DNA of 64,000 nt from Lonicera japonica (lineage: Eukaryota > Streptophyta > Magnoliopsida > Dipsacales > Caprifoliaceae), in NCBI GenBank assembly GCA_021464415.1, contig CM038464.1, forward strand, positions 2,976,001 through 3,040,000. Direction: 5' to 3'. A program made the translations under genes and the position numbers. The notes beneath the pieces are model-generated. The model worked only from the letters and a program-made list of their open reading frames with translations. It was not told the origin of the DNA and made no database searches. Shown in pieces: positions 1 through 59,690 of this stretch (its first letter is position 1; each line of letters begins with the position of its first letter).

Positions 1-624
1 AATAAAATTCTAATGATTTTTGAACCTCAAAGATATGTTTCTAAGATACCTATTTTTATTCTAGCTTAAAATATGATCATTTAAAATTAATATGAATTTA
101 TTTTGAAACTCGATTTTTGTAAAATGATGTTTTTCAAATAAATTCAATTTCAAGCTAGTTTGAATCAATCTTTAAAAGATGTAAGAATATGTTTGAGCTA
201 TAGGGATTTGATCAATAAAGTATCTTTACATAAAATCTAAGCACTCACTCCATTTAATGATAATTTGAGTCTTCGTGATGCTTGATTTTCTTGTGCGTAT
301 CTTTACTTGTTTGATGTTCTTGATCCTTTCTTGGTTTTGATAACTTGTAGAACATGTGGAGATCATTCTTGTGCATATCTTCACTTGCTTGATGATCTAG
401 ATCTTTTCTTGGCTTTGTATATCACATGTATATCACTTGAGTTCATTTCTTGTGAGTAGAGGCGTTTATAAAGCTTGTGTGAGATTTGCTTCGGTTTGAA
501 GTTACACTTGGTCGGAAGATATATCGATTAAAATGGCTATCATCATTGGAACAACCGAGTTAAATAGCACTTTATTAACTTATTGTAAGTATCAAAATAA
601 GATTAATTAACTTTAAGGTCAACA
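1..624 (-). mobile_element. Ty1/copia LTR fragment, cut by the window edge
   Basis: This stretch is nearly identical over long blocks to positions 45420-45975, the outer part of the LTR of the copia element further right. It ends with the same terminus, GGTCAACA, at 624. On the minus strand the LTR therefore begins TGTTGACC at 624 and runs off the left edge. No polypurine tract follows it, so it is the outer end of a minus-strand element lying to the left, or a solo LTR. Around 300-450 it has an internal duplication, a second copy of a block resembling 'cttgtgcgtatcttcacttg', that the 45.7-kb copy lacks. Confidence 0.85.
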
Positions 625-5163: not shown

Positions 5164-8100
5164 CTACCGCCTGGGCTCATTTAAAGTCTTACCCTCGAAA
5201 AATTCACCGAGCATTCTATCAAGATCTTCTGCCGTGTATCTGATGTACTTGTGGGCATTCTTTCCATTCTCAACCAGTGGACTGCAACACATAAGAAATT
5301 CCATTTTAAAATCACCGAATACAACAAATTACTAATGAAGGCTCTAAATGACCACTCTAATTAAAATGAAATTATTACTCGAGAGAAATCAACATCCGAG
5401 AAAAAAACATATTTTACAATATAGTTACAATAATGAATATACTATGTTTACTTGTTGCATATACAAGGAGGTTATATCCCATTGCGCCATATGAAATAAT
5501 TTCCATGTTTTGTTATCAGGTAAAGCTATTACAGGTGGCCTTAGCACCACGCTTACTGTCCTGATGACAGAAGCAACAGTGTTGATGCTGTTCAGGTAAG
5601 AATTTCCATTATGAGAGGTAACCCCAACTTTTAGCAACAACTTCGTCTTTGGATTTTCAACAAATGCATCATATGGAAAATACTTGCAACAACAAAATAT
5701 TGAGGGAGGGTGTGATTGGTTTATGTGGAAAATAACTGAATTTCTTGGAATTCGTTTTTCATGAAACAATTTTAAATGGAGAACATAACCCAGAGCTAGA
5801 GGGGAGGTGGTTCTTGGATTTTCCAAGAAGAAGAAATATAATAAAAAATGGCCTAAAAAAAAATATGGAAGTGTCCTCGTGCCCCTTTTAAAAAAAAGCA
5901 TCCTGTGCTTGTGAACGATGAGAAAGAAGCAATACCCAAAACGTTTAATGAAAGATCTGTATGCTGGCAATAAGACTTCAGCAACAGCAAGCCTCAGAGA
6001 TTCTCGCAACTCCGTATCAGGAACTGTCCACTCAGATTGTCTTTGATGAAGCTCCTCAAACTGCGCATTGAAAGTCTTCAACCTGATAACAGGATGCAGT
6101 GAGATTCAAATAGGAAGCCACATAAACCAAATTTTTGATACCCCAGAAGGAAAATATTGACCTCTCTTTTATGACTGCTCTTGATACTCCACTACTACTA
6201 CTACTTCCTCCGTCAACACCAACTGAACTAGAACTACCACCCCCAGATGATGTCAGGCCTTGAACAGAGAGGCACTGCAGGATCTACAAAGACAAAAGCA
6301 TCCGAAATTATTATTTGATATATAACCTAAACATTTGAAAACATAAAAATATAATTGAGCCCCTTTAAACAGTGCAAACCAATTGATAATTCAGATTGAG
6401 CACGTGGTACCATGATATTTAACAATATAGTCGTCGTGATCAGAACAGCTGGCTGGAAGGCCCCTCCTTCCAAAGTTCCAATTGTTCTCGGGTTTTTTAA
6501 ACCAACTTCCTAACCCATATATTTAAAACTTGAGAGGAAAATAATTGTTCTAAAAAACTTGACTTGCTATCAATAAATAAGAATGCAGAAAATGTGGTAA
6601 AACTCCACTTGTCAACCTATGGATGCAATAAGGAGACTTGAGTGATTTTCTTTACATACTTTTCTGAATACTACGTTGGAATGGCTAATCAGAACGGGTA
6701 CAGGGTGGGGACATTGTTGATTGCACCCGATGAAACATTTATGTATTATTTTAAAGGACACAGTAACTCACACTGTCCATCTTACCCAGAAAACTGAAGG
6801 ATGTATATAGAAGAAGGTAACACTACAAAATTGATAGCAAACTACCCCCTCCAAACCAACACACCACCCGCCCACTTTTTGACCTTTTCTGATATGGAGT
6901 ATAAGATTACACACTCCACCTGAAATGCCATGCAACACTGTTGACCAGTATGACACATCTTTCATAATTTCAGTTCTATAAGATAGATTAAACGAGGATT
7001 TCAAAGGGACTACATGAAAGGATAGTTATGCATCCACAATATACAAGTAGAGATGTATGTGTTCCTCACCCACCCCCAACCCCCCTTTCTTCTCTCTCTT
7101 CTTTCTCAAAAACCAAAACAAAAAATTTATTGAATTTAAATCTTCTCATATCACTGTAAGAATTAAGACCGGGCCAGTGAAGTTTGTATCGATGTCAACT
7201 ATTGTAAGATGCATGTTAAATTACTAGCCACAACATTTGATCGTGTTCATGTATGTATCATAATAAGGTTTGGATGTCACTATCTCCAATAATATCATCT
7301 TCCTGTGAGAACTATAACGGCCAGAAGTTTCTACAGGAAGTAAGCCCAAGTTTCTAGGGTAAAAAGATAAAAATCATAAAAGAAGTCTTATTAGAATTAG
7401 ACCTTTGCCCAAGCAATCCTCTTGTACTGGTTTGCATGTTGCTGAACAACTCTTCGGTGTCTTTGCACCCAATCGTCCCCTAACAAATCCTTAGCTTCAG
7501 ACCTAAAAACAACAGATATGAGCACAGATTTTAGTATGCATATAAGACAAGCTTGTTGTGCCATAAACAAGTTATCTCAAACTCTTATATACATATGACA
7601 AACCTGCGCACCGATCTAACCATATAGTGAATGTTGTTCATAAGAAACAAGTGAGTGAGAGCAACATCTTTATATTGCTTGGATTTTGCCTCCAAATTGA
7701 TCTGGAGAGCCTGCATTATTCGCATTGTTACGGATGCCAGCTGAGAATTTGATTCACCTGGATTTTCAAACTCTTGGAAGAGCTGCTTCAAAGTTGACTG
7801 ATAGCTGAACATAAATGATGTCAAAAACCAGTGACATGTGATTAATAGAGAAGAAATGAACATCTGATAATTTCGAGACAGTGGATATGATTTCAACTTA
7901 GTTATATGAATTGGATCGTTGAATTTACGACTTAAAATAAACTGACAGAAATCCAAGGCGGGGGAAATTAAAGTAAGTTAATAAATATGCAATGAAAGGC
8001 AGAAAAGATAAATTCAGCAGATAGAGTTTAAAATCATGTGGCGCATTCTGTGAATATGTTGCAGGAAAATCCTTGCAAAAAGATAAATGCGTGCATTCAA

Positions 8101-22261: not shown

Positions 22262-23144
22262 TTGAAGGTAGGAAATGGCAGAGGAGCTTTTGCCTGTGTT
22301 ATGTTACTGGGGGGGTCCACTTTTATTGGTCCAATGGGCTACAGTTTCGAGGGGTCTCCTAAGACGGCCATTATGCTGAATGCCAACTCAAACTACAATG
22401 AACTATTGAACAAGATATATTGTGTGATGAAATTGGATAAAACAAAGTTTAACATGAAGATTAATTTTCGGTGTCCCACAGCCATTCACGCGGCTTCCAC
22501 ATATTATACGTCTTTAGAGATTAACGATGACTCGTTAGTGGAGGTTATGATAGGTGTTTTGAAGAGAATGAGTTCTATAACCATGTTAGAGCTGTTCATA
22601 GAAGTCGAACCAGTTAAGATTGTCACAGTAGGAGATCCTGATTTCCCTCTCATGTTAACACAGAATTTCGTCGTCTTGTCGCAGTGTACACCTGGGGACC
22701 AAGTAGATTAAACTTGAATGAGAACCATTGCACTTATCTCCACCACCTGTCCACCATGCATATTCATTTGTTTCTACTTTGACATCTTCTTCACCACAGT
22801 TAGAGAATAACAACCAGTATCTACCGTTATTTGGATCACCTTACATGCTTACTCAGACTGGTTCATTAGCAGTTACACCATTGCCGACATTTTCGTCTTC
22901 CCCCACTATAGAGGTGTTGACATAATTGCCCAGTATTAAGGATTTAGATGCTACTACAGTTGCTATTGGTAGAGGTGTTGGGAGGGGGAGGGGGAGAGGT
23001 AGAGGGAGAGGGAGAGGGAGAGTTGCAGGTGCAGGTGGGATTGAGGGAGAGGGATATAAAGTTGTAGATGCACATGTAGGTGCAGATCACGAGGGGAATG
23101 GCAGGCCTAAAAGAACGAGGAAACACCCTGCTTGTGGTACATAG
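22262..23144 (+). pseudogene. mudrA-type transposase remnant (N-terminal and C-terminal parts)
   Basis: The first frame, open from about 22262 to 22711, resembles the N-terminal region of plant MuDR-like proteins. It contains a SNYNELLNKIYCVMKLDKT segment followed by IHAASTYYTSLEINDDSLVEVM-type sequence (quoted in part). After stops and frame changes, 22926-23144 gives a Gly-Arg repeat tail and a KRTRKHPAC-like end, typical of the C-terminal tails of the same proteins. The catalytic DDE core and SWIM zinc finger are absent, so a large internal deletion has removed them. The GR-rich tract is a (GGGAGA)n repeat in the DNA. No function is expected except perhaps as a non-autonomous relic. Confidence 0.6.
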
Positions 23145-39072: not shown

Positions 39073-39075
39073 TTA

Positions 39076-39308
39076 TGCTGCGTTTGACGCACCGGATAAA
39101 AGAGTGAGATATGATAACTTTATCCTATCATATGTTTGATATTCGTCAAGATTAGATATCGGGATGAATTATTTATCCCATTAAAACTTCTTATCCCACC
39201 GATGGAAGGATTAATGAATCTCAAATGAGAGGTGAAATTGTTTTATCCTGCCCAAATAAGATTAACTAATCTAATCCGACTATGTAATCAGGCGCGTCAA
39301 GTACACCC
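39076..39308. mobile_element. Tourist/PIF-type MITE, left of a tandem pair
   Basis: The left end TGCTGCGTTTGACGCACC is matched by the inverse of GGGTGTACTTGACGCGCC at the right. TTA flanks both sides (39073-39075 and 39309-39311). The interior has many TTATCC/GGATAA motifs. The right-hand TTA is also the left TTA of the next element. Confidence 0.6.
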
Positions 39309-39888
39309 TTAGGGTGCGTTTGGCGCGCTGAATAAGGAGGTAGGATATGATAGGATAAAGGCCGGATATGATAAGAGTCAAAATTAGTCGAATATAAATT
39401 ATGTGAGATATGATAGCAAAGGAATCAGTCATATAATGATTAAGCGGGATCGGACAGAATAAAGATTAGTCGGATAAAGATTTAATAAACTTTACATTTA
39501 ATAGAGTTCTGGACTACAAATCCAGATATTATATAATACAACTTTCTTTTCTTTCAAATATATATGCAATTTTAATTGTTGTGCATAATTTTTTTTTAAC
39601 TAATGCGATTATTCTATTAATAAATAAGTTTCGTAAGAAACTTTTTCTAGAGAAAAGTTCTATATCACATACAATATTTACAAACTAGGCATTTAGTACA
39701 ATTTCAAATTCTAATGTTACCATTTTTTCTAAAATTAAAGTTTCTTATAAATATTTTCATTTAATAAAAAAATAAATAAAAATGCCATATTATAAAAGAA
39801 ATGAATTCTATTAATTGTATTACTGTAATTTTTGGTGGTTGAAAATTTTCATTAATAAATTTGATTATCTAAAAAGTGTAAAGAAAAA

Positions 39889-40096
39889 TGTTGACCTTAA
39901 AGTCAATTAATCTTATTTTGATGATGACAATAGAGTTAATGCGTGTTTATAAAAAGATAATAATTTTAAGCATATGAATAATATGCTCCCCCTAAATAGG
40001 TGCATAGATAAAAATGTAAATGAATAATATGCTCCCAAATTACACATGATTGATTTATTGTTATTATCAAAATAAGATTAAGACCTTAGGTCAACA
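39889..40096 (-). repeat. Rearranged 3' LTR remnant with two outward LTR termini
   Basis: The right end, next to the polypurine tract, reads on the minus strand TGTTGACCTAAGG..., as expected for the start of a 3' LTR. The left end reads TGTTGACCTTAAAGTC on the plus strand, which is the same LTR terminus in the opposite direction. The expected inner LTR end (CCTACA on the minus strand) is missing. The 208 bp is thus a short palindrome-ended remnant of an LTR of about 1.5 kb. Confidence 0.6.
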
Positions 40097-40110
40097 ATCT
40101 CCCCCTTTTT
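40097..40110 (-). other. Polypurine tract of the copia element
   Basis: On the minus strand AAAAAGGGGGAGATT lies directly before TGTTGACC, the position and composition expected of the plus-strand priming tract before a 3' LTR. Confidence 0.7.
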
Positions 40111-40481
40111 GATGATGACAATAAATTAATGTGTGTTAACAAGAACAAGCATAAATAGCATATAAATATAAATGAAAGAAATAGTTTAATAGTTAAAACT
40201 TAAATATAGTCATAGTTCTTAGAGTGTGTACCATTATCACTCTTTAAACTTGGCTTAAAAAATCACACACATCACACACATTATTTCTCCCCTTTTGATA
40301 TCATCAAAAAAGAGTGACTCTTGAGGTTGTGGTTGTGGTTGTGGTGAATTGGACTCACATATACGTCACTTAATGGAACGTTTTGAGCTGCTGAAAAAAA
40401 ATTGACTTCAGCCAACAAGCTGTTTTTGAGGATAGCATGCTGTTTTACTGCTCTAGAATCATCAAAAATCTACTAGAATGT

Positions 40482-40818
40482 CAAAGTCCTTTGTAGGAGA
40501 ATTGCTATAACTCTTTGTAGAAAACTCCAATTGATGCACTGTAAATTGAGTTAGAATGTAGACACATAGAGCTTTCCAGAAATATATGGTAGAGAACCTA
40601 ATTCTCAGCCAATTGGTAGAGTTTTAGTTGTAAAGTTGCACTATGTCCATATCAAGTCCTTTGTGGGAGAATTGCTATAACTCTTTATAGAAAACTCTAA
40701 TTGATGCACCGTAAATTGGGTTAGCAAGTAGACATATAGAGCTTTCCAGAAATATATGGTAGAGTACCTAGTTCTCAGCCAATTGGTACAGTTTTAGCTG
40801 TGAAGTTGTACCATGCCC
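40482..40818. repeat. Two-copy tandem repeat of about 168 bp
   Basis: Two direct copies start at AAGTCCTTTGT (40482 and 40651) and run through a shared TAGAGCTTTCCAGAAATATA block to a CAATTGGTA...TTTTAG end. They sit in the 3' non-coding part of the copia element. Confidence 0.8.
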
Positions 40819-41263
40819 AATTTTCTGCATATTATTTTGCCATTTTTTTTAATGGCTCAATAAAATGTCAAAACACGAAATATAACATGCAAAAGAAAAC
40901 AAGTATGGATATTAAATACATAAAGCATTTAAAAGTCTTACCACAATATTTAAAGTCGGTATAAAAAATCTTACCACAGCATTCAAAGTTATAAAAAATC
41001 TTACCGCAAAAAAAAAATCTTATCTTTTACCGCAGTATCAACATTACGCACATTTTCTCCCCCTATGTCAACATCAAAGAGGGATCTAGACCGTGCTAGG
41101 GCGGTGGACTTTAGATGCACGCGGGGGGCGCTGTATTTTTGACCTTTTAGGATGACAGCTTTTCATTTTCGGGATTCTTTTAATTGCTCTGCCTCTTGTC
41201 CCCTCTTTCTTGTTGTCTTCCTCGAGATCCATTTTCTTCTTATAACTTTTATAGAAGGTACCC

Positions 41264-42034
41264 ATGAGTAAAGGAAAGCAAATCACAAGTATGCCGAATA
41301 CCTTCTGTTGTACAGGTTCGTCTTGTGCTGCTTGCACTTATAAACGCAAGAAATGTCAGCCATGGTGTGAATATGCACAAATTTTTATGGATGTGATTAG
41401 TCGTCAAGATTATCGTACAATTTTCACCGTTTTTGGGGTAAATAGTGTTGCAAATATTTTAAAAGATATTCCTGAACATCAATATCTTGAGACTCTCTAT
41501 TCATTTCTTTTTGAAGCTAAGGCAAGAGTCAAGAATCCCAGTAAAGGCTGTATTGCACTTATTGTTTCTCTTGAACAGAAGGTACAAGAGTTACAATCAC
41601 GAGTGACAGCGTTAGAGGCTTTGCAATCGCGGGTGACAACATTAGAGGCTCGATTAGGAGAGTCTTCTAGCGCTAACCAATGCTTTTCTTTTGCTCATCC
41701 TAGAAGTTCTACAGTGCCCTTATCGTTAGTAGAAAATGTTGCAGTTGAAATTCTTCCGACTACCGGGAATCTTTCAGACCATGGTGCTTTTCAAACTAAT
41801 GTGGGTTTGCCGGCATATCTGACTCTGTCAGATTACCAAGCTGCTTTGGAAGGCCATTCATCACAATTTTCTCAAAGTGGTACTATTGCGGAGGTTGCCG
41901 AGCCAATGAGTCCTGATTGGACAGCTCTATTAGATATGGAGCATAATTTTGTTGATCATTCTTCTTCTAGTCTCGATACTGTTTTGAATTTTGATGCTGA
42001 TGATCTTCAGATTATGTTCCCTTCTTTTCTTTGA
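41264..42034 (+). CDS. LOB-domain (LBD/AS2-like) protein carried antisense in a copia element
   Basis: This is a 256-codon frame with no intron. LBD proteins are plant-specific DNA-binding transcription factors that act in organ-boundary and meristem development. The LOB cysteine block C-x2-C-x6-C-x3-C is complete (Cys21, 24, 31, 35). It is followed by a GAS-like block (residues 41-90, with IFTVFGVNSVANILKDIPEH) and the EAKARVKNPSKGC segment matching the EAxAR-DP-YGC region. A leucine-rich coiled coil spans about 99-131, within which LQSRVTALEA is repeated as LQSRVTTLEA. The acidic Ser-rich C-terminus (LDMEHNFVDHSSSSLD, then DADD) could be an activation region. Substitutions at usually fixed LOB positions (for example NPSKGC for DPVYGC) make it a divergent member. 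The ATG at 41264 is the first in frame; 41291 is an alternative. It lies on the opposite strand to gag between the broken pol and the polypurine tract. Confidence 0.85.
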   Translation: MSKGKQITSMPNTFCCTGSSCAACTYKRKKCQPWCEYAQIFMDVISRQDYRTIFTVFGVNSVANILKDIPEHQYLETLYSFLFEAKARVKNPSKGCIALIVSLEQKVQELQSRVTALEALQSRVTTLEARLGESSSANQCFSFAHPRSSTVPLSLVENVAVEILPTTGNLSDHGAFQTNVGLPAYLTLSDYQAALEGHSSQFSQSGTIAEVAEPMSPDWTALLDMEHNFVDHSSSSLDTVLNFDADDLQIMFPSFL

Positions 42035-42084
42035 ATGATAAATAATAATTTTTTTAGACTGCAAAATTATTGTTAGTTTATAAT

Positions 42085-42657
42085 AACATGCAAAATGAAG
42101 ACTTATGTTATTTACCAAGTTGACAAGCATCACAAATTTTATCTTTAATAAGTTTAGTTTTAAGCAATCCTTTAACTAATTCCATTTTAGATAATTTGTG
42201 AACTAAATCCATATTAGCATGAACTAATCTTCTATGCCATAACTAAGAAACATCATTTAATACGGATAAACATTTAACATATTGTTTAGATAAATCATCA
42301 AGTTCAAGGGTATATATGTTATTTGATCTATAAGCAACAAACAAGATAGAATTATCACTAATAATTTTAATAATGCAACATTCGGATTGAAAAATAACTT
42401 CATAACCTTTATCACACAATTGACTAATACTAAGCAAGTTATGTTTTAAACTGTCAACAAGTAGAACAATATTAATATAAGAAGATTTCTTACCAACTTT
42501 ACCTATACCAATAATTTTGCCTTTGGCTTTGCCTCCAAATGTGACGTTACCTCCTTATTTAGAAGTTAGACTCAAGAATTTTTTTTTTCCCATCATGTAT
42601 TTCGAGCATCCACTATCCAATAACCATTTTATTTTGCTAGCTTTTGCTCTTAGGCAA
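42085..42657 (-). pseudogene. copia pol remnant: protease and gag-pre-integrase only
   Basis: Continuing in the gag frame past its stop codon, the minus strand encodes KIKWLLDSGCSKYMMG, with the aspartic protease D-S-G. It then gives NLLSISQLCDKGYEVIFQSE and WHRRLVHANMDLVHKL...CDACQLGK, the gag-pre-integrase segment with its His and CxxC. The frame is continuous but has four in-frame stops (after ILV, and near 42553, 42243 and 42117). Homology stops at KSSF near 42085, about 50 bases from the end of the LBD frame, where the junction with the captured segment must lie. Integrase, reverse transcriptase and RNase H are not present anywhere in the element. Confidence 0.85.
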
Positions 42658-42659
42658 AC

Positions 42660-44411
42660 CTACACCAAAATCTTAAGCAACTTCTCTTTTGGTACCCAAA
42701 ATAAGTTGGGTCCTTTGGGATTAGCATACATAGTGGTTCCTTTAGGAATCCAAGCAAGTTTGTTCTTAGCAAAATTATTTTCTTTGTAATAACAAGAATG
42801 TGCACTATGAGTATTTCTTCCACAAAATGAGCAAAGATGAGTGGGATCATGAGGTGTGCATGTTTTAAAAAAGTTTTTGTAATCCTTTTGGTTGTCAATT
42901 TGGTTATAGCCCAAACCGGCTTTGTCAAAAACACACCTTTGCATTCCTAATAGTTTATCCAAATTATCCCTACCATTGGTGAATTTGGTTAAGCTATTAG
43001 TTAGATCATCCACTTGATCTTTTAATTTGACATTTTCTACTACAAGTGTGTTTGGAATTTCCTTTTCCTTTTCTTTCTTCACAGTATTGATTTCATTTTT
43101 CAAAACCATGTTTTCTTTCTCAAAAAGTTCACACTTGTTAGAAATTATCAAATTCTCCTTTTTGAGGCTTGCAAACTTTTTAGATAGATTTTCAAATTTG
43201 GTATGCAATTCCTCAAACATTTCATATAACTCATCATATTCATTTTCATCATGAGCATCATCATTTATAGAAATATCACTAAATGAATTATAAATAGAGT
43301 CTACCTCATTGTCTCTTGCCATAAGGCAAAGATTTGCCGTCTCCTCGTCGCTAGAGTTGGCATCGGACTCACCCTCTTCAGAATCACTCCAAGTTCCCTT
43401 GAGGGCATGCCTTACTTGTTTAAAGGCTTTATCTCTTTTATCTCTTCTCTCTTTTCTTCTAACCGGGCAATTTGTTTTGAAGTGTCCCGGTTCATGGCAA
43501 TGGAAACATTTTTTAACTTCTTCGTTTTCAACTCTTGGTTGAATTGATCGATCATTGTTTCTATTTGATGAAGAACCAAAATTGTTTCCTTTCTCTTGAA
43601 ACTTCTTATTCTTGGCTAGAAATTTCATGAAGTTTCTAGAGAGGAGAGCCATGTCATTGTCACCACCCATTGACTCTTCATCATCCTCTCGTTGACTTGC
43701 CTTGAGAGTAAGAGTCTTCTTGGCTTTTGGATCAACTTCTTCTTCTCTCTCTAATTCCTTCTCGTGGGTTTTAAGTGAACCCAATAGTTCATCCATGCTT
43801 AACGTTTTCAGATTCTTGGCTTCTTGAATAACCGTTACTTTGGGTCTCCACTTCTTAGGAAGAGTTCTAAGAATCTTTCGAATTTTATCCTCATTGGAGT
43901 ATTCCTTTCCAAGAAGATCTAAAGCATTAGTAATAATGGAAAACCTACTATACATAGAAGCAAGAGATTCATTAGGCTTCATTTTAAAGAGTTCATAATC
44001 ATGAACGAGCATATTTATATTATCATCCTTAACTTGTGAAGTTCCTTCATAGGCAACTTCTAATTTATCCCAAATTTCTTTGGCGGTTTTACAACTAAAA
44101 ATTTTGTTGTATTCATCTATAGTTAATGCACAGTGTAGAGCATTCAAGGCTTTAGCATTAAATTGGATTTTCTTAATATCATTCTCATCATATTCAGAAA
44201 TAGATTTAGAAGTGACTATACCATTTGCATCGGTTTTGGTAATCTTATACGGTCCAATAAGTGTAACTTTCCATTTCCATTGTTCAAAATCACTAGCTTG
44301 AAGGAAAGTGCTCATACGACTTTTCCAATAATTATAATTTTTGCCATCAAATAGCGGTGGTCTAGTGGTGGAAGAACCTTCGTTGATTTCGGTTCCTTGA
44401 TAAATAGACAT
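42660..44411 (-). CDS. Ty1/copia Gag protein, 583 aa
   Basis: Gag packages the retrotransposon RNA into virus-like particles. The N-terminus (MSIYQGTEINEGSSTTRPPLF) leads into a retrotransposon gag (UBN2-type) domain, about residues 20-225, with the typical YNYWKSRMSTFLQ and TAKEIWDKLEVAYEGT motifs. A CCHC zinc knuckle, CFHCHEPGHFKTNC, is at 302-315. A Lys/Glu-rich coiled coil covers about 385-480, and a second CCHC, CSFCGRNTHSAHSC, is at 527-540. The frame is intact and ends at a TAG, beyond which the same frame continues into protease. Copia elements of this type usually have one gag-pol frame, so that TAG may be a lesion. The start is the ATG at 44411, 44 bases after the primer-binding site. 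Confidence 0.9.
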   Translation of the reverse strand: MSIYQGTEINEGSSTTRPPLFDGKNYNYWKSRMSTFLQASDFEQWKWKVTLIGPYKITKTDANGIVTSKSISEYDENDIKKIQFNAKALNALHCALTIDEYNKIFSCKTAKEIWDKLEVAYEGTSQVKDDNINMLVHDYELFKMKPNESLASMYSRFSIITNALDLLGKEYSNEDKIRKILRTLPKKWRPKVTVIQEAKNLKTLSMDELLGSLKTHEKELEREEEVDPKAKKTLTLKASQREDDEESMGGDNDMALLSRNFMKFLAKNKKFQEKGNNFGSSSNRNNDRSIQPRVENEEVKKCFHCHEPGHFKTNCPVRRKERRDKRDKAFKQVRHALKGTWSDSEEGESDANSSDEETANLCLMARDNEVDSIYNSFSDISINDDAHDENEYDELYEMFEELHTKFENLSKKFASLKKENLIISNKCELFEKENMVLKNEINTVKKEKEKEIPNTLVVENVKLKDQVDDLTNSLTKFTNGRDNLDKLLGMQRCVFDKAGLGYNQIDNQKDYKNFFKTCTPHDPTHLCSFCGRNTHSAHSCYYKENNFAKNKLAWIPKGTTMYANPKGPNLFWVPKEKLLKILV

Positions 44412-44454
44412 GATCGTAAACTCTAAGATTGTTAAATCAAAAATAAGAGTACAA

Positions 44455-44466
44455 CCTCTGATACCA
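44455..44466 (-). other. Primer-binding site of the copia element
   Basis: On the minus strand TGGTATCAGAGG follows the LTR end CCTACA after two bases. TGGTATCAGAG is complementary to the 3' end of plant initiator methionine tRNA, the usual copia primer. Confidence 0.9.
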
Positions 44467-44468
44467 AT

Positions 44469-45975
44469 TGTAGGTCGGAAAATACCCTAGAGGGGGGGTG
44501 AATAGGGTTTATAAAACTAAATGCGGAATTTAAAAATCTTTTCAAAAAGTTTAAGTAAAACAATTTACTTAACAAATATATATCAAGGAATGTAAGCAAT
44601 AACAAAACAATCAATAATAAAGAGATTGAGTTAGAAAGATTAAACCAATCGAAATCCAAGATTTTTTGTCCACACGGTTCGGCTTGTTCCCCCTACTCCG
44701 CGCTCGGTTAGTTCCCCGAGAACTTCCACTAAAACCGATCTCCTTCCGGGTGAAGATCAAACCACTACAAGTGTATTCTTCTCACACACTCTACAAGTAT
44801 TGCTACACCACAACACTCTCACAAGATACCCTCTTGCTAACCTATGAGATACAACTCTCACAAATATGATTTGAATAAGTTTTGGTGGCTAAAACCAATG
44901 TACAATATCTCTCTTGTGTATAACAAAATACAAATGAAGCTCACACTAAGAGATATCAAAATTGATCAAAGTATATAGCTCAAAAATGAAATATTGATCA
45001 ATTAAATGAATTGAATACTTGAATAACTTTGTATATATGTAAAATGAGTTTGTAGAATGATTCAAGTATATTAAAACATGTCTAAGACATCATATTTATA
45101 GCTTACAAAATCATATGGCCGTTGGGGATGATTAAGAGAGGTTTTGGCTCCAAGGTATACATTTTCAAACTTTCCAACAGCTAGTTTTGACAAAAAAATT
45201 CAAAATTGTTTTGTTAATTTCTCCCAATTAGACCGTTGGATCATGCTCAAATTTTAGTCAAAATTTTCAGGAGATGTTGTCTAACTACTATAAAAATTTC
45301 AAAATGATCGGAGTTCGGGAAGGCCTCCATTTTACCGTTAGATCAAAACTGGGTAAAAATTGAGCGAATTTTAAACGAAAAATAAAAATATTTTTCCAAT
45401 TTAATAATTTAGTTCCAAATAAAATTCTAATGATTTTTGAACCTCAAAGATATGTTTCTAAGATACCTATTTTTATTAGAGCTTAAAATATGATCATTTA
45501 AAATTAATATGAATTTATTTTGAAACTCGGTTTTTGTAAAATGATGTTTTTCAAATAAATTCAATTTCAAACTAGTTTGAATCAATCTTTAAAAGATGTA
45601 AGAATATGTTTGAGTTATAGGGATTTGATCAATAAAGTATCTTTACATAAAATTTAAGCACTTACTCTATTTAATGATAATTCGAGTCTTCGTGATGCTT
45701 GATTGTCTTGTGCGTATCTTCATTTGATTGATGATCTTGATTCTTTCTTGGTTTTGATTCTTTGTGAAGCACATAGAGATCATTTGAATTCATTTCTTGT
45801 GAGTGAAAGCATTTGTGGAGCTTTGTGTGAGAGTTTGACTATATCGGTTTGACGTCACACTTGGTTGAAAAAGATATCGGCTAATGGCTATCATCATTGG
45901 AATAACCGAGTTAAATAACACTATATTAACTTATTGTAATTATCAAAATAAGATTAATTGACTTTAAGGTCAACA
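44469..45975 (-). repeat. 5' LTR of the copia element, about 1.5 kb
   Basis: It reads TGTTGACC...CCTACA on the minus strand, bounded inside by the primer-binding site. The outer 555 bp match 1-624 closely. It should hold the element's promoter. The inner part (about 44690-44790) is comparatively GC-rich. Confidence 0.85.
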
Positions 45976-46280
45976 AAAAAGATTGAAAAAAAATTAATTT
46001 TTTATATTCAATTTATTATCCGACAATCATGGGATAAAATAATACCACATATAGGGGTGGTACATATTTATCCTGTTTTAAAGAGATAAAATGATAATTA
46101 ATCTCGAATGCAATCCAGTCCCGTGTTGCGCTAAACGTGGGATAGGATTAAAATATTCTATCCACCGTTGCGCCAAACATATGACATAATTTATTTATCC
46201 TATCATTTTCGACAACAAACACTGGATATGATTAATTAATCATATCCTGCTTCTAATCCCGCGCGACAAACACACCCTTA

Positions 46281-54453: not shown

Positions 54454-56891
54454 TCAAGCATCACACTTGTAAGCTAGAAAGGAGGAAGTTGTACAGTATT
54501 TGGATGCCAAGGTCTTTCCCATAGAGGTTGGATCAGAGAATGCCAATTGATATGGTTTCAGCTCCATGTCCTTGCAGAAACTTATCCTGCATATCACCAA
54601 ATAAATCCAACTTTAGGTTCAATTCTTCCATTACAAGACTGTTGTGTGAAAAAGAAGAGCTTATTATACAACAGAAGCTGCAAAAATTAAGAGACATGCA
54701 ACAAGGCACAATGCTACATCAACCAATTACTCGTACTAGTGGATATACAATCCATTAAGGCACCCCGTATGAATAGCCAGTTCATGTGCCGATACAAAAA
54801 TCGTTCTTCCCTGATCCTAAACACTAAACCAAAGAGTCACCTTTTCCGTCTTACCTTCCATCTGGTGCTTGTTTGATGCGAGTTATTGTGGAATCAGAAA
54901 TTAGTAGTCAAACCTTTCACAAAGAAATCGGTGTCAATTATTAAACTTTTGAGCCAGTTATGATAATATCTAAATTTTTACCAATTTAGGATCTTGGAAG
55001 CACAAAAGCCTAATGAATTTACTGGGTAAGTAAATAGGTAAAACAAGCAAATAGTGGGATATCAAATTATGTAATCATTTCAAGTATTATTAGAGTGAGC
55101 TGCTTTTATCAAATACTAGTGGCTGGGATAGATATCAAACTCAATGTGGAAAATACCTTGCAGCGTCCAGCAATTGAGTGGTTATATGTTTCCCTCTCAT
55201 AGAAGGTGCAACCCAGATGGCTCTAATTCCACAAACAGCAGGTACAGCATCCTTTTCAATAAATATTGCTCCCATGGCCTCCTCCCCTGATGCCTTATCA
55301 TCATTTGCCAAAGGAGTTCTCCTCAAAGTTTCCCTCTTAAAATTTATATCTCCAAACCGAAGTGGAAGTGAAGTTGGTCTTGTTTTATTTGTATTTGTAG
55401 TATCAAGATTTGGTCGAGACACTGAGTTTGAAATAACTTTGTAGGCATCTTTTATCGGCTCTGCAATTAGACAACCAGCAACCCTTTGGTGGAAAATAAA
55501 CAGATACACCTGTAATCGAGAGCAAATCATGTAGATGAAACAAAGAGCTCACTTCAAAAAATTGTATAAATGTAAACCAAACAATAGTACATGGCTCCAA
55601 CCTTACATAGCTTAGGAAATAGCCATCCACTTTCAAGCTCCATCTCCATCATCTCCAAAACCTTCTGAACCTGCCCAACGCAGTGGGTATCCAGAGTACG
55701 GTCAGGAGGATACATGAATTTGTCAGTCAAATGTACCCAAAATCCACTTTACCAAGGCTTAAACATAGTTAATATCTTTTATCAAACCAGGACTTCGGTT
55801 GAGACGGAGGAAGTATATTATATCAATTACCCATTAATCCACTGATTACAAAATGAAAAATTCAAGGATCAAAGGGATCTAACAGAAAGGGATTACCTTT
55901 TTCTTATGAGCAGGTGGGTCACTGTGTAGCACCAAAATTATGCGTCCTCCCTCATTTGATGGAACTGGAATAATCCTTTCATTGTGCCATCCCTATAAAT
56001 TGGAATCAGATAAAAACGACATCACATAGGGCAAAGACAATAAACAAAATGAGAACTTGAAAATCACTTGTGATGTCATTGATTTTTTCATATTTACATA
56101 AGAGGTGATTACCTTGAATTGGATGCCCCGAGTATAATCCTTGTGGAACACCTTGTGAACTTTTTCATCCCCTTGATTACCACAAGCATACTGGAAGCTG
56201 CATACAGGACAAGAGTGGAGCAGAAAATCAGATTGTCCCAAATCCAAATGTAGTTGAGCATAACTCCTCTTCTTGTTCAGTAATCTAGTTGAGCCACGGT
56301 TGGGTTTCAAAGGAAAACCTTCTGAATCATTTTCTTTTGATGCTTTAATCTGCAGACCAACACTTCCATTACTGCTGCAAACAAAAAGAATGATGCATTA
56401 AATGTCACATAAAGTGTAATTTGTACCTTTTCTCTGTCTTTTCTCTTTAGCTAGACCAAATGCAAGAAGTTGAAAAACAACTAAAAGAACCGAGACCCAA
56501 CAAAGGGATAGAAATTTATAGCAGTCACATGCAATTTAACTCCTGGATAACGGAATTCTAGGGTTTTCGAATAATTTGAAAGATAAAAAATAACTAATAA
56601 AAGAAATACAGTTTTATCGCAAAAATCAAAAGCAGTGAACTGTATTAAATTGGACAATGGCTGAAGAGTTATAAGTAACCAAGAATAAGAAAAGATGACA
56701 TACATATGAGGAGGGGGAGGAGGAGGAGGAGGTTGTGTATGACTTGGTGCACAGCCCTTTTCTATCAGTGAAATTTGAGGACCGTTGTTGCGGGAGGGTG
56801 AAAGACAGGAGCTTTGATCGAAGAGCTGAGGCGGGTTTAGGGTTTTGGTGTGTTGTTGCGGCTTGAAGAAAGCACTGATCTTCGATTGCAT
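54454..56891 (-). CDS. CTF7: CTF7/ECO1 cohesin acetyltransferase, 6 exons, 366 aa
   Basis: CTF7/ECO1 acetylates the SMC3 subunit of cohesin in S phase, which locks sister chromatids together. Exons are 56891-56704, 56374-56113, 55992-55897, 55670-55602, 55509-55157 and 54586-54454 (TGA). All are GT-AG, and the 1101 bases are in frame. The N-terminus MQSKISAFF is a PCNA-binding PIP box (Gln2, Ile5, Phe8, Phe9). A Pro run ends exon 1. The C2H2 zinc finger uses Cys118, Cys121, His136 and His140 (CPVC...HKVFH). The acetyltransferase core includes [20 protein letters not shown] and [13 protein letters not shown]. The last exon supplies [18 protein letters not shown]. Arabidopsis has RRKGIAT in the acetyl-CoA loop; here it is RGKHITT (Arg310-Thr316), so the usual glycine is His313. 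The reading frame is otherwise intact. Whether the enzyme is active is uncertain. Confidence 0.9.
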
Positions 56892-58731: not shown

Positions 58732-59690
58732 GGTCGAATATTAATCCTATAGGAGGTGAATAGGGTTTAAGGTAAAAAATGCGAAATTTAAAATATTTTT
58801 GATAAATATTTAAACAATATATCAAGTAATATAAACTCGACATTAAATAAGAGTAATGAATAAAGAGCTTGGATTTCGAAAGAATTAACAGTAAAAGCCA
58901 ACGATGTTTTGTTTACGTGGTTCGGTTGTTTAGATCATACGTCCGCACTAAAAGTCGGTGCCCAAGAATTTTCACTATAAATCCTTTTATGGGTCAGGAA
59001 CAAATTGGTTAAAGTTCTTCAAACTCCAAGTATGAGAAACACACTCACATTATTCACACAATATCACAATATTGTTATATTATGAAAAAACATCTTATAA
59101 ATGAATAAATATAGTTTGTTTAGTGATACTCACCAATATACAATCATTTTCAAGTATTATGAAAATATAAGACGAAGCTAACTGATCAAAGTTTATAGCT
59201 CAATCACAATGATAATGATTAATTTAAATGATGATTTTTTGCAAGAAAGTGCTGATTGCTTTTTAATAGATGAAAATAAAGTCTTTTAAAGCCTTGGTAG
59301 TGTCTAAAAGTTCCCACAAAATTGGTTTTATAGTCCCTCTTTGGAATATAGCCGTTTTATTGCATTTAATGCAAAAAGTACAAATTCAACAGCTATATTC
59401 TGATGGTCATTAGTCGAGTGAGCAAAAGATTCTGCCACCTAACCAATTTTCAAATTGTTCCAAAAATCATTTCAATGCTTTGATAATGTTCCAAATATGT
59501 TTCGAAGAATGGACATATAGTTTTTGAACATTTAAACGTCTGTTTGATTTAGTTATGAATTAAAATTAAAAACAAGTATAAATTTTAAAAGATTTTTGTA
59601 AGTTGTTTTTATCAAAGCTAGTTTCGAATCATTCTTACGATATGATGAAATCATTATGTTTAAGTTATATAAGGTAATCAATCATTCTTA
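58732..59690 (-). mobile_element. Diverged copia LTR, solo fragment
   Basis: It follows the order of blocks in the LTR at 44469-45975: GGTGAATAGGGTTT near the inner end, an ACGTGGTTCGG block, the sequence around AACTGATCAAAGT, and a CGAATCATTCTTA block near 59630. It is much more diverged than the copy at 1-624. No gag or primer-binding site adjoins, so it is an old solo LTR or remnant. Confidence 0.65.

Follow-up and report, generated by a model that had tools for sequence, protein, structure and literature searches.

Within a 64,000-nucleotide stretch of the Lonicera japonica genome (NCBI GenBank assembly GCA_021464415.1, contig CM038464.1, positions 2,976,001 to 3,040,000 of the forward strand; the whole of this stretch is the window below, and all coordinates refer to it), the segment 39889-45975 is read here, with moderate confidence, as a single composite, defective Sirevirus-type insertion (Ty1/copia, SIRE lineage) that carries an antisense LOB-domain gene. 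Followed on the minus strand from 45975 down to 39889, it opens with a 5' long terminal repeat (LTR), continues through a tRNA-Met primer-binding site (PBS) and gag, and reaches a protease/gag-pre-integrase remnant. These parts and their strand had been recognized in an earlier sequence-only reading, and the open reading frame (ORF) list, Pfam and the PBS junction bear it out. The landmarks of the element proper, including its polypurine tract (PPT), are:

44469-45975, minus strand: 5' LTR, about 1507 bp (~1.5 kb), from by-eye reading and the PBS junction match
44483-44499, minus strand: C-rich run close to the LTR end, similar by eye to the integrase signal of Sireviruses (no statistic)
44455-44470, minus strand: junction of the 5' LTR end and the PBS, 15/16 to the Sirevirus consensus
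42660-44411, minus strand: intact gag, 583 codons with no stop (ORF list; Pfam PF14223, E 2.1e-27)
42093-42659, minus strand: protease/gag-pre-integrase remnant, 189 codons with three internal stops
40097-41082, minus strand: Sirevirus-type linker; one more AGGGGGAG octamer lies at 41057-41064
40484-40819: a ~170-bp repeat in the linker, present as a tandem pair (90% identity over 166 nt)
40099-40106, minus strand: terminal PPT AGGGGGAG, two bases ahead of the TG of a U3 stub

The non-coding landmarks fit the Sirevirus (SIRE) lineage of copia elements, an assignment made because of the octamers, the PBS junction, the C-rich signal and the inverted repeat around the PPT; passages of PMC2829016 list as Sirevirus marks the PBS junction, polypurine octamers in several linker copies, the PPT inverted repeat and the C-rich integrase signal. 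The Sirevirus 16-mer that spans the 5' LTR and PBS, CA/ATTGG/TATCAGAGC, is found at 44455-44470 with one mismatch in 16. Three AGGGGGAG octamers lie in the element (39986-39993, 40099-40106 and 41057-41064) and seven in the whole window, against a shuffle mean of 0.52; two overlapping octamers are at 22983-22996 on the plus strand. The arms that flank the PPT, ATTGTCATCATCAAAA and TTTTGATAATAACAAT, are complementary at 14 of 16 positions, and the left arm abuts the terminal PPT.

The 3' side is abnormal. A standard two-LTR element was considered and rejected: a direct-orientation LTR pair, the mark of a complete LTR retrotransposon, is absent, and the 3' side offers no more than a U3 stub of ~60 bp plus an inverted U3 end:

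40037-40096, minus strand: ~60-bp U3 stub (TGTTGACC...) in place of the 3' LTR start
39917-40036, minus strand: second, divergent linker stretch with its own AGGGGGAG octamer (39986-39993) and a pre-PPT inverted-repeat arm
39889-39922, plus strand: inverted copy of the start of the element's own 5' LTR, 34/34 identical, forming the left terminus

From 40096 the U3 stub matches the 5' LTR over about 60 bp, with substitutions and small gaps, and then the match ends. Beyond it, the second linker-like stretch leads to the pre-PPT arm, where the sequence switches to the complement of U3 and runs to its end at 39889. With an inverted LTR start at the left end, both termini are U3 ends, flanked by AAAAA, and the two ends of the element share an inverted repeat of 44 nt at 95%. 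The left-end 34 bases show no mismatch to the element's own 5' LTR, one to an LTR at 1-624 of the window and 15 (ungapped) to the U3 stub.

The LTR at 1-624 (minus strand, U3 start at 624) is another copy of the same family, with 508 of 552 aligned bases identical (gaps excluded), and is either a solo LTR or one whose body lies beyond the window. A weak match to the 3' part of the LTR at 58752-58930 (67% over 204 columns) is perhaps a related copia LTR remnant. In the window, further copies of the element are confined to these two LTR pieces, the latter weak.

The flanks of the element look like the halves of one miniature inverted-repeat transposable element (MITE):

39312-39888: left arm of a MITE-like sequence (terminal inverted repeat GGGTGCGTTTGGCGCGC, TTA ahead), split by the insertion
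39884-39888: AAAAA, possible 5-bp target-site duplication, left
45976-45980: AAAAA, possible 5-bp target-site duplication, right
45976-46277: right-hand arm of that MITE-like sequence, with TTA after it

Joined together, the flanks would form a MITE-like unit with TTA on either side, whose two ends are similar over 18 bases (2 differences, by eye). Of all 5-mer pairs that can be taken from the two 500-bp flanks, 0.35% are identical. AAAAA itself occurs at about 1% of positions in either flank; its presence on both sides by chance is unlikely. The entry of the composite as one unit is supported because AAAAA abuts both ends, the ends form the 44-nt inverted repeat and the flanks resemble a single split MITE, and the description of the locus as a composite in the sequence-only reading stands on the same three grounds. 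A shorter MITE-like unit bounded by TTA, at 39073-39311, adjoins the split one and has a similar 44-base start (73%).

These ends and flanks also bear on whether an ordinary host LBD gene merely came to lie between two independent Sirevirus fragments. An intact LOB ORF of coding-type composition would be expected of such a gene, and the left-half U3 stub does differ from the right-half 5' LTR by substitutions and gaps. Yet the two halves share orientation and follow each other as in an element, the outermost bases on both sides coincide exactly with LTR termini next to AAAAA, the right terminus recurs inverted and without mismatch in the 34 bases of the left one, and the outer flanks resemble two arms of one MITE; a chance juxtaposition of this kind is considered unlikely.

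In the single composite favored here, coding capacity on the minus strand is reduced to gag and a fragment of pol. In frame downstream of gag, Pfam reports gag_pre-integrs (E 1.1e-13) and two Pol_BBD pieces, one just over the cut-off (E 3.4e-6) and one below it (E 8.6e-4), and a protease DSG motif is present in the remnant by eye. The recognizable pol reading breaks off near 42093, again by eye. Stops in the frame that extends downstream of gag fall at 42660, 42555, 42243 and 42108. The intactness of gag had been noted before and holds; the four stops then ascribed to pol include gag's own, leaving three. The reported lack of integrase, reverse transcriptase (RT) and RNase H is likewise upheld: no Pfam match to the RT, RNase H or integrase core families was found in any of the 18 stop-to-stop pieces of at least 45 amino acids between 39889 and 42660, and five RT/RNase H/integrase motif patterns taken from general knowledge, scanned with no positive control, gave no hit in the element or in the six frames of the window. 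Among viral contigs, seven stretches were examined for relatives of gag, and none was confirmed.

Between the broken pol and the linker lies the LOB gene, on the opposite strand:

41083-42092, plus strand: inserted segment with the LOB gene, junctions approximate (by eye)
41264-42034, plus strand: intact 256-amino-acid LOB-domain ORF, antisense to gag, with no intron in the ORF
41591-41650, plus strand: in-frame 30-bp tandem duplication (10 amino acids) in the leucine-heptad region of the LOB protein

The sequence-only reading had placed here, between the broken pol and the PPT, a 256-codon plus-strand frame with a LOB cysteine block, as is now confirmed by matches to the Pfam LOB family (E 6.8e-23; residues 20-116 against positions 1-96 of the 99-position profile) and to a LOB protein of solved structure, Ramosa2.1 (5ly0; E 1.5e-18). 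The C-x2-C-x6-C-x3-C block begins at residue 21. GC content at the three codon positions is 0.49, 0.42 and 0.27, and that of the window is 0.31. A chance ORF was rejected on the Pfam LOB match and on shuffling: when the bases of the 1013-bp insert were shuffled 2000 times, the longest ATG-initiated ORF reached 181 amino acids, as against 256. The class I LOB/LBD zipper is defined as L-x6-L-x3-L-x6-L; this strict pattern has no match in the ORF, and a different heptad-type leucine run is seen by eye. The acidic tail, 121 amino acids long, contains 15 acidic residues and one basic residue. The AlphaFold2 single-sequence model is weak (mean pLDDT 43). Relatives of the ORF were sought in 11 stretches of viral contigs and 38 stretches of prokaryote genomes, and none was confirmed. 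Capture of the segment from a host gene is plausible.

Expression of the LOB protein, should there be any, could plausibly start from an antisense promoter in the linker, where TATAAA occurs at 40960 and 40990. A plus-strand transcript that starts there would meet upstream ATGs at 41065, 41115 and 41152 before the first ATG of the LOB frame, which we take to stand in a weak context. The product, with its acidic tail, would then be expected to work in the nucleus as LOB factors ordinarily do; alternatively, the gene is silent.

Stops are unevenly spread over the frames. The LOB frame has no stop in 256 codons and the pol remnant three in 189; the density in the remnant predicts 4.0 stops for the LOB frame and 9.2 for gag, and neither holds any (P 0.018 and 1e-4, respectively). 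The chance that all three stops land in the remnant among the three frames is 0.006, and the remnant compared with the LOB frame alone gives P 0.079. These figures presuppose that the frames were exposed for equally long, and they depend on three stops. Four of the five differences between the copies of the 30-bp duplication are synonymous, a weak signal (P 0.087 under a transitions-only null). The stop counts are suggestive of selection on gag and point weakly to selection on LOB; the stop difference would also follow if the LOB segment had come in later.

Such a later arrival, in which an LBD copy (a retrogene or other DNA insertion) entered an already integrated and decayed element, would explain both the ORF without an intron and the contrast of zero stops with the three in the remnant. 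However, it is the linker, not pol, that comes after the insert, and a deletion of pol at the same place would be needed as well; moreover, neither a flanking duplication nor poly(A) is seen by eye at the insert junctions. This order of events is regarded as quite improbable.

The same stop deficits, the clustering of all three stops in the remnant and, weakly, the mostly synonymous duplication differences would be expected if the element were one damaged member of an established non-autonomous Sirevirus family, with the LOB ORF as an antisense accessory gene maintained by selection, as seems to hold for other such ORFs; Grande, RIRE2, Retand and PvRetro13 all have antisense ORFs between pol and the 3' LTR, as parts of PMC7264820 and PMC11963269 describe. 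Against such a family stand the one copy known, the equal exposure assumed for a test on three stops and its P of 0.079 for the remnant against LOB alone. The three upstream ATGs, if transcription begins in the linker, and a first ATG presumably in weak context speak in the same direction, and the existence of the family is judged unlikely. An extension of this thought, by analogy with retroviral antisense regulators, is that a non-autonomous Sirevirus lineage adopted the LOB factor as an antisense gene that regulates the element or the state of the host cell, with fold-back at the PPT as a recurrent route to two-U3-ended insertions; this is a rather doubtful prospect.

How the favored single composite might have arisen can be outlined from its sequence. 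The element would have kept its LTR, primer site and gag and lost most of pol. Either template switching or recombination at the DNA level would have brought in the antisense ~1-kb LOB segment and linker pieces of related elements. During the final round of replication, cDNA synthesis may have halted with the 3' end in the inverted-repeat arm just ahead of a polypurine tract. If this end paired with the complementary arm in the U3 of the same element and was extended as far as the LTR terminus, a linear molecule would result whose two termini both carry a U3 attachment end. The ends and flanks suggest that the integrase of a relative may then have inserted this molecule into an older MITE-like sequence, duplicating 5 bp (AAAAA). 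Aberrant reverse transcription by fold-back at the PPT inverted repeat would be the simplest account of the left end, where the divergent pre-PPT stretch extends to the switch point. Ordinary reverse transcription requires a second R. With the full 3' LTR, and hence a second R, missing, the copy should be immobile, and it is probably stuck, unable to transpose again; mobilization in trans, as once proposed, is not supported for this copy, which has only the ~60-bp U3 stub at the 3' LTR position.

Several points weigh against a single insertion with a captured gene. AAAAA is low-complexity sequence, the MITE arms are matched by terminal similarity alone, and the joined MITE would be rather long, ~0.87 kb; an uninterrupted copy of it was not found in the window. 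The insert junctions were set by eye, and only one copy of the element is known, without a host paralogue for comparison. The only trace of the fold-back step would be the junction itself, and the capture may have taken place either before or during the last replication round.

Elsewhere in the window, Exo70 C-terminal pieces in two ORFs at 5428-7977 on the minus strand (E 2.6e-18 and 3.1e-19) represent a broken or intron-bearing Exo70-like gene. Pieces of an ESCO/CTF7-type cohesion acetyltransferase at 55144-56397, also on the minus strand (zinc finger, E 3.7e-13; acetyltransferase, E 1.3e-9), apparently belong to a host gene with introns.

According to parts of PMC7264820, most antisense accessory ORFs in plant LTR elements lack recognizable relatives, and their origin and role are consequently open. 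A copy with a recognizable host-type transcription factor would make both origin and function testable, and the two-U3-ended structure points to one concrete effect that the conserved inverted repeat flanking Sirevirus PPTs may have. As a single known copy, the element may equally be a one-off accident.

Among known elements, the SIRE (Maximus) lineage shares the PBS junction, the AGGGGGAG octamers, the PPT inverted repeat, the C-rich signal, an LTR of ~1.5 kb and a long linker. The element differs from this lineage in lacking detected RT, integrase and RNase H and a full 3' LTR, and in an extra ORF that is antisense and LOB-type; 74% of SIRE elements carry a sense extra ORF, by the figure given in a portion of PMC6317226. 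LTR elements with captured host genes include maize Bs1 and 672 rice and 1,343 sorghum cases (passages of PMC3726574 and PMC7264820); they too hold a host-type gene within an LTR element, whereas here no donor gene is identified and the orientation is antisense. Triticeae complex LTR elements likewise contain a chimeric insert, ascribed to abnormal template switching in part of PMC1950507, but in the present element the proposed fold-back onto U3 gives inverted U3 termini.

TR-GAG elements are non-autonomous LTR elements that keep LTR and gag and have lost pol. The honeysuckle element resembles them in all these respects and differs by its antisense ORF and the want of a full 3' LTR.

The closest parallels are Grande gene23, RIRE2, Retand TRP28 and PvRetro13, whose antisense ORFs match the present one in orientation and in position between pol and the 3' LTR. 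Several proteins of this type are nuclear or predicted to bind DNA, and they show no clear similarity to known proteins, or else TRP28, SMC or a few other domains (parts of PMC7264820 and PMC11963269); here, by contrast, the match to a LOB domain is significant, the element is a copia element and one copy is known. The ~170-bp tandem repeat of the linker (40484-40819) recalls the tandem arrays between pol and the 3' LTR of Retand (PMC11963269, in part). The word 'LOB' does not occur in the main text, supplements aside, of PMC7264820, PMC11963269, PMC13317346, PMC6317226 or PMC3726574, and the main text of the last also lacks 'transcription factor'. A literature search, conducted mostly on titles and the beginnings of abstracts and outside subscription papers and supplements, found no LOB-type antisense ORF in a Sirevirus. 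A recognizable LOB factor in a Sirevirus is a variant, not found in the literature searched, of a known kind: plant LTR elements with antisense accessory ORFs.

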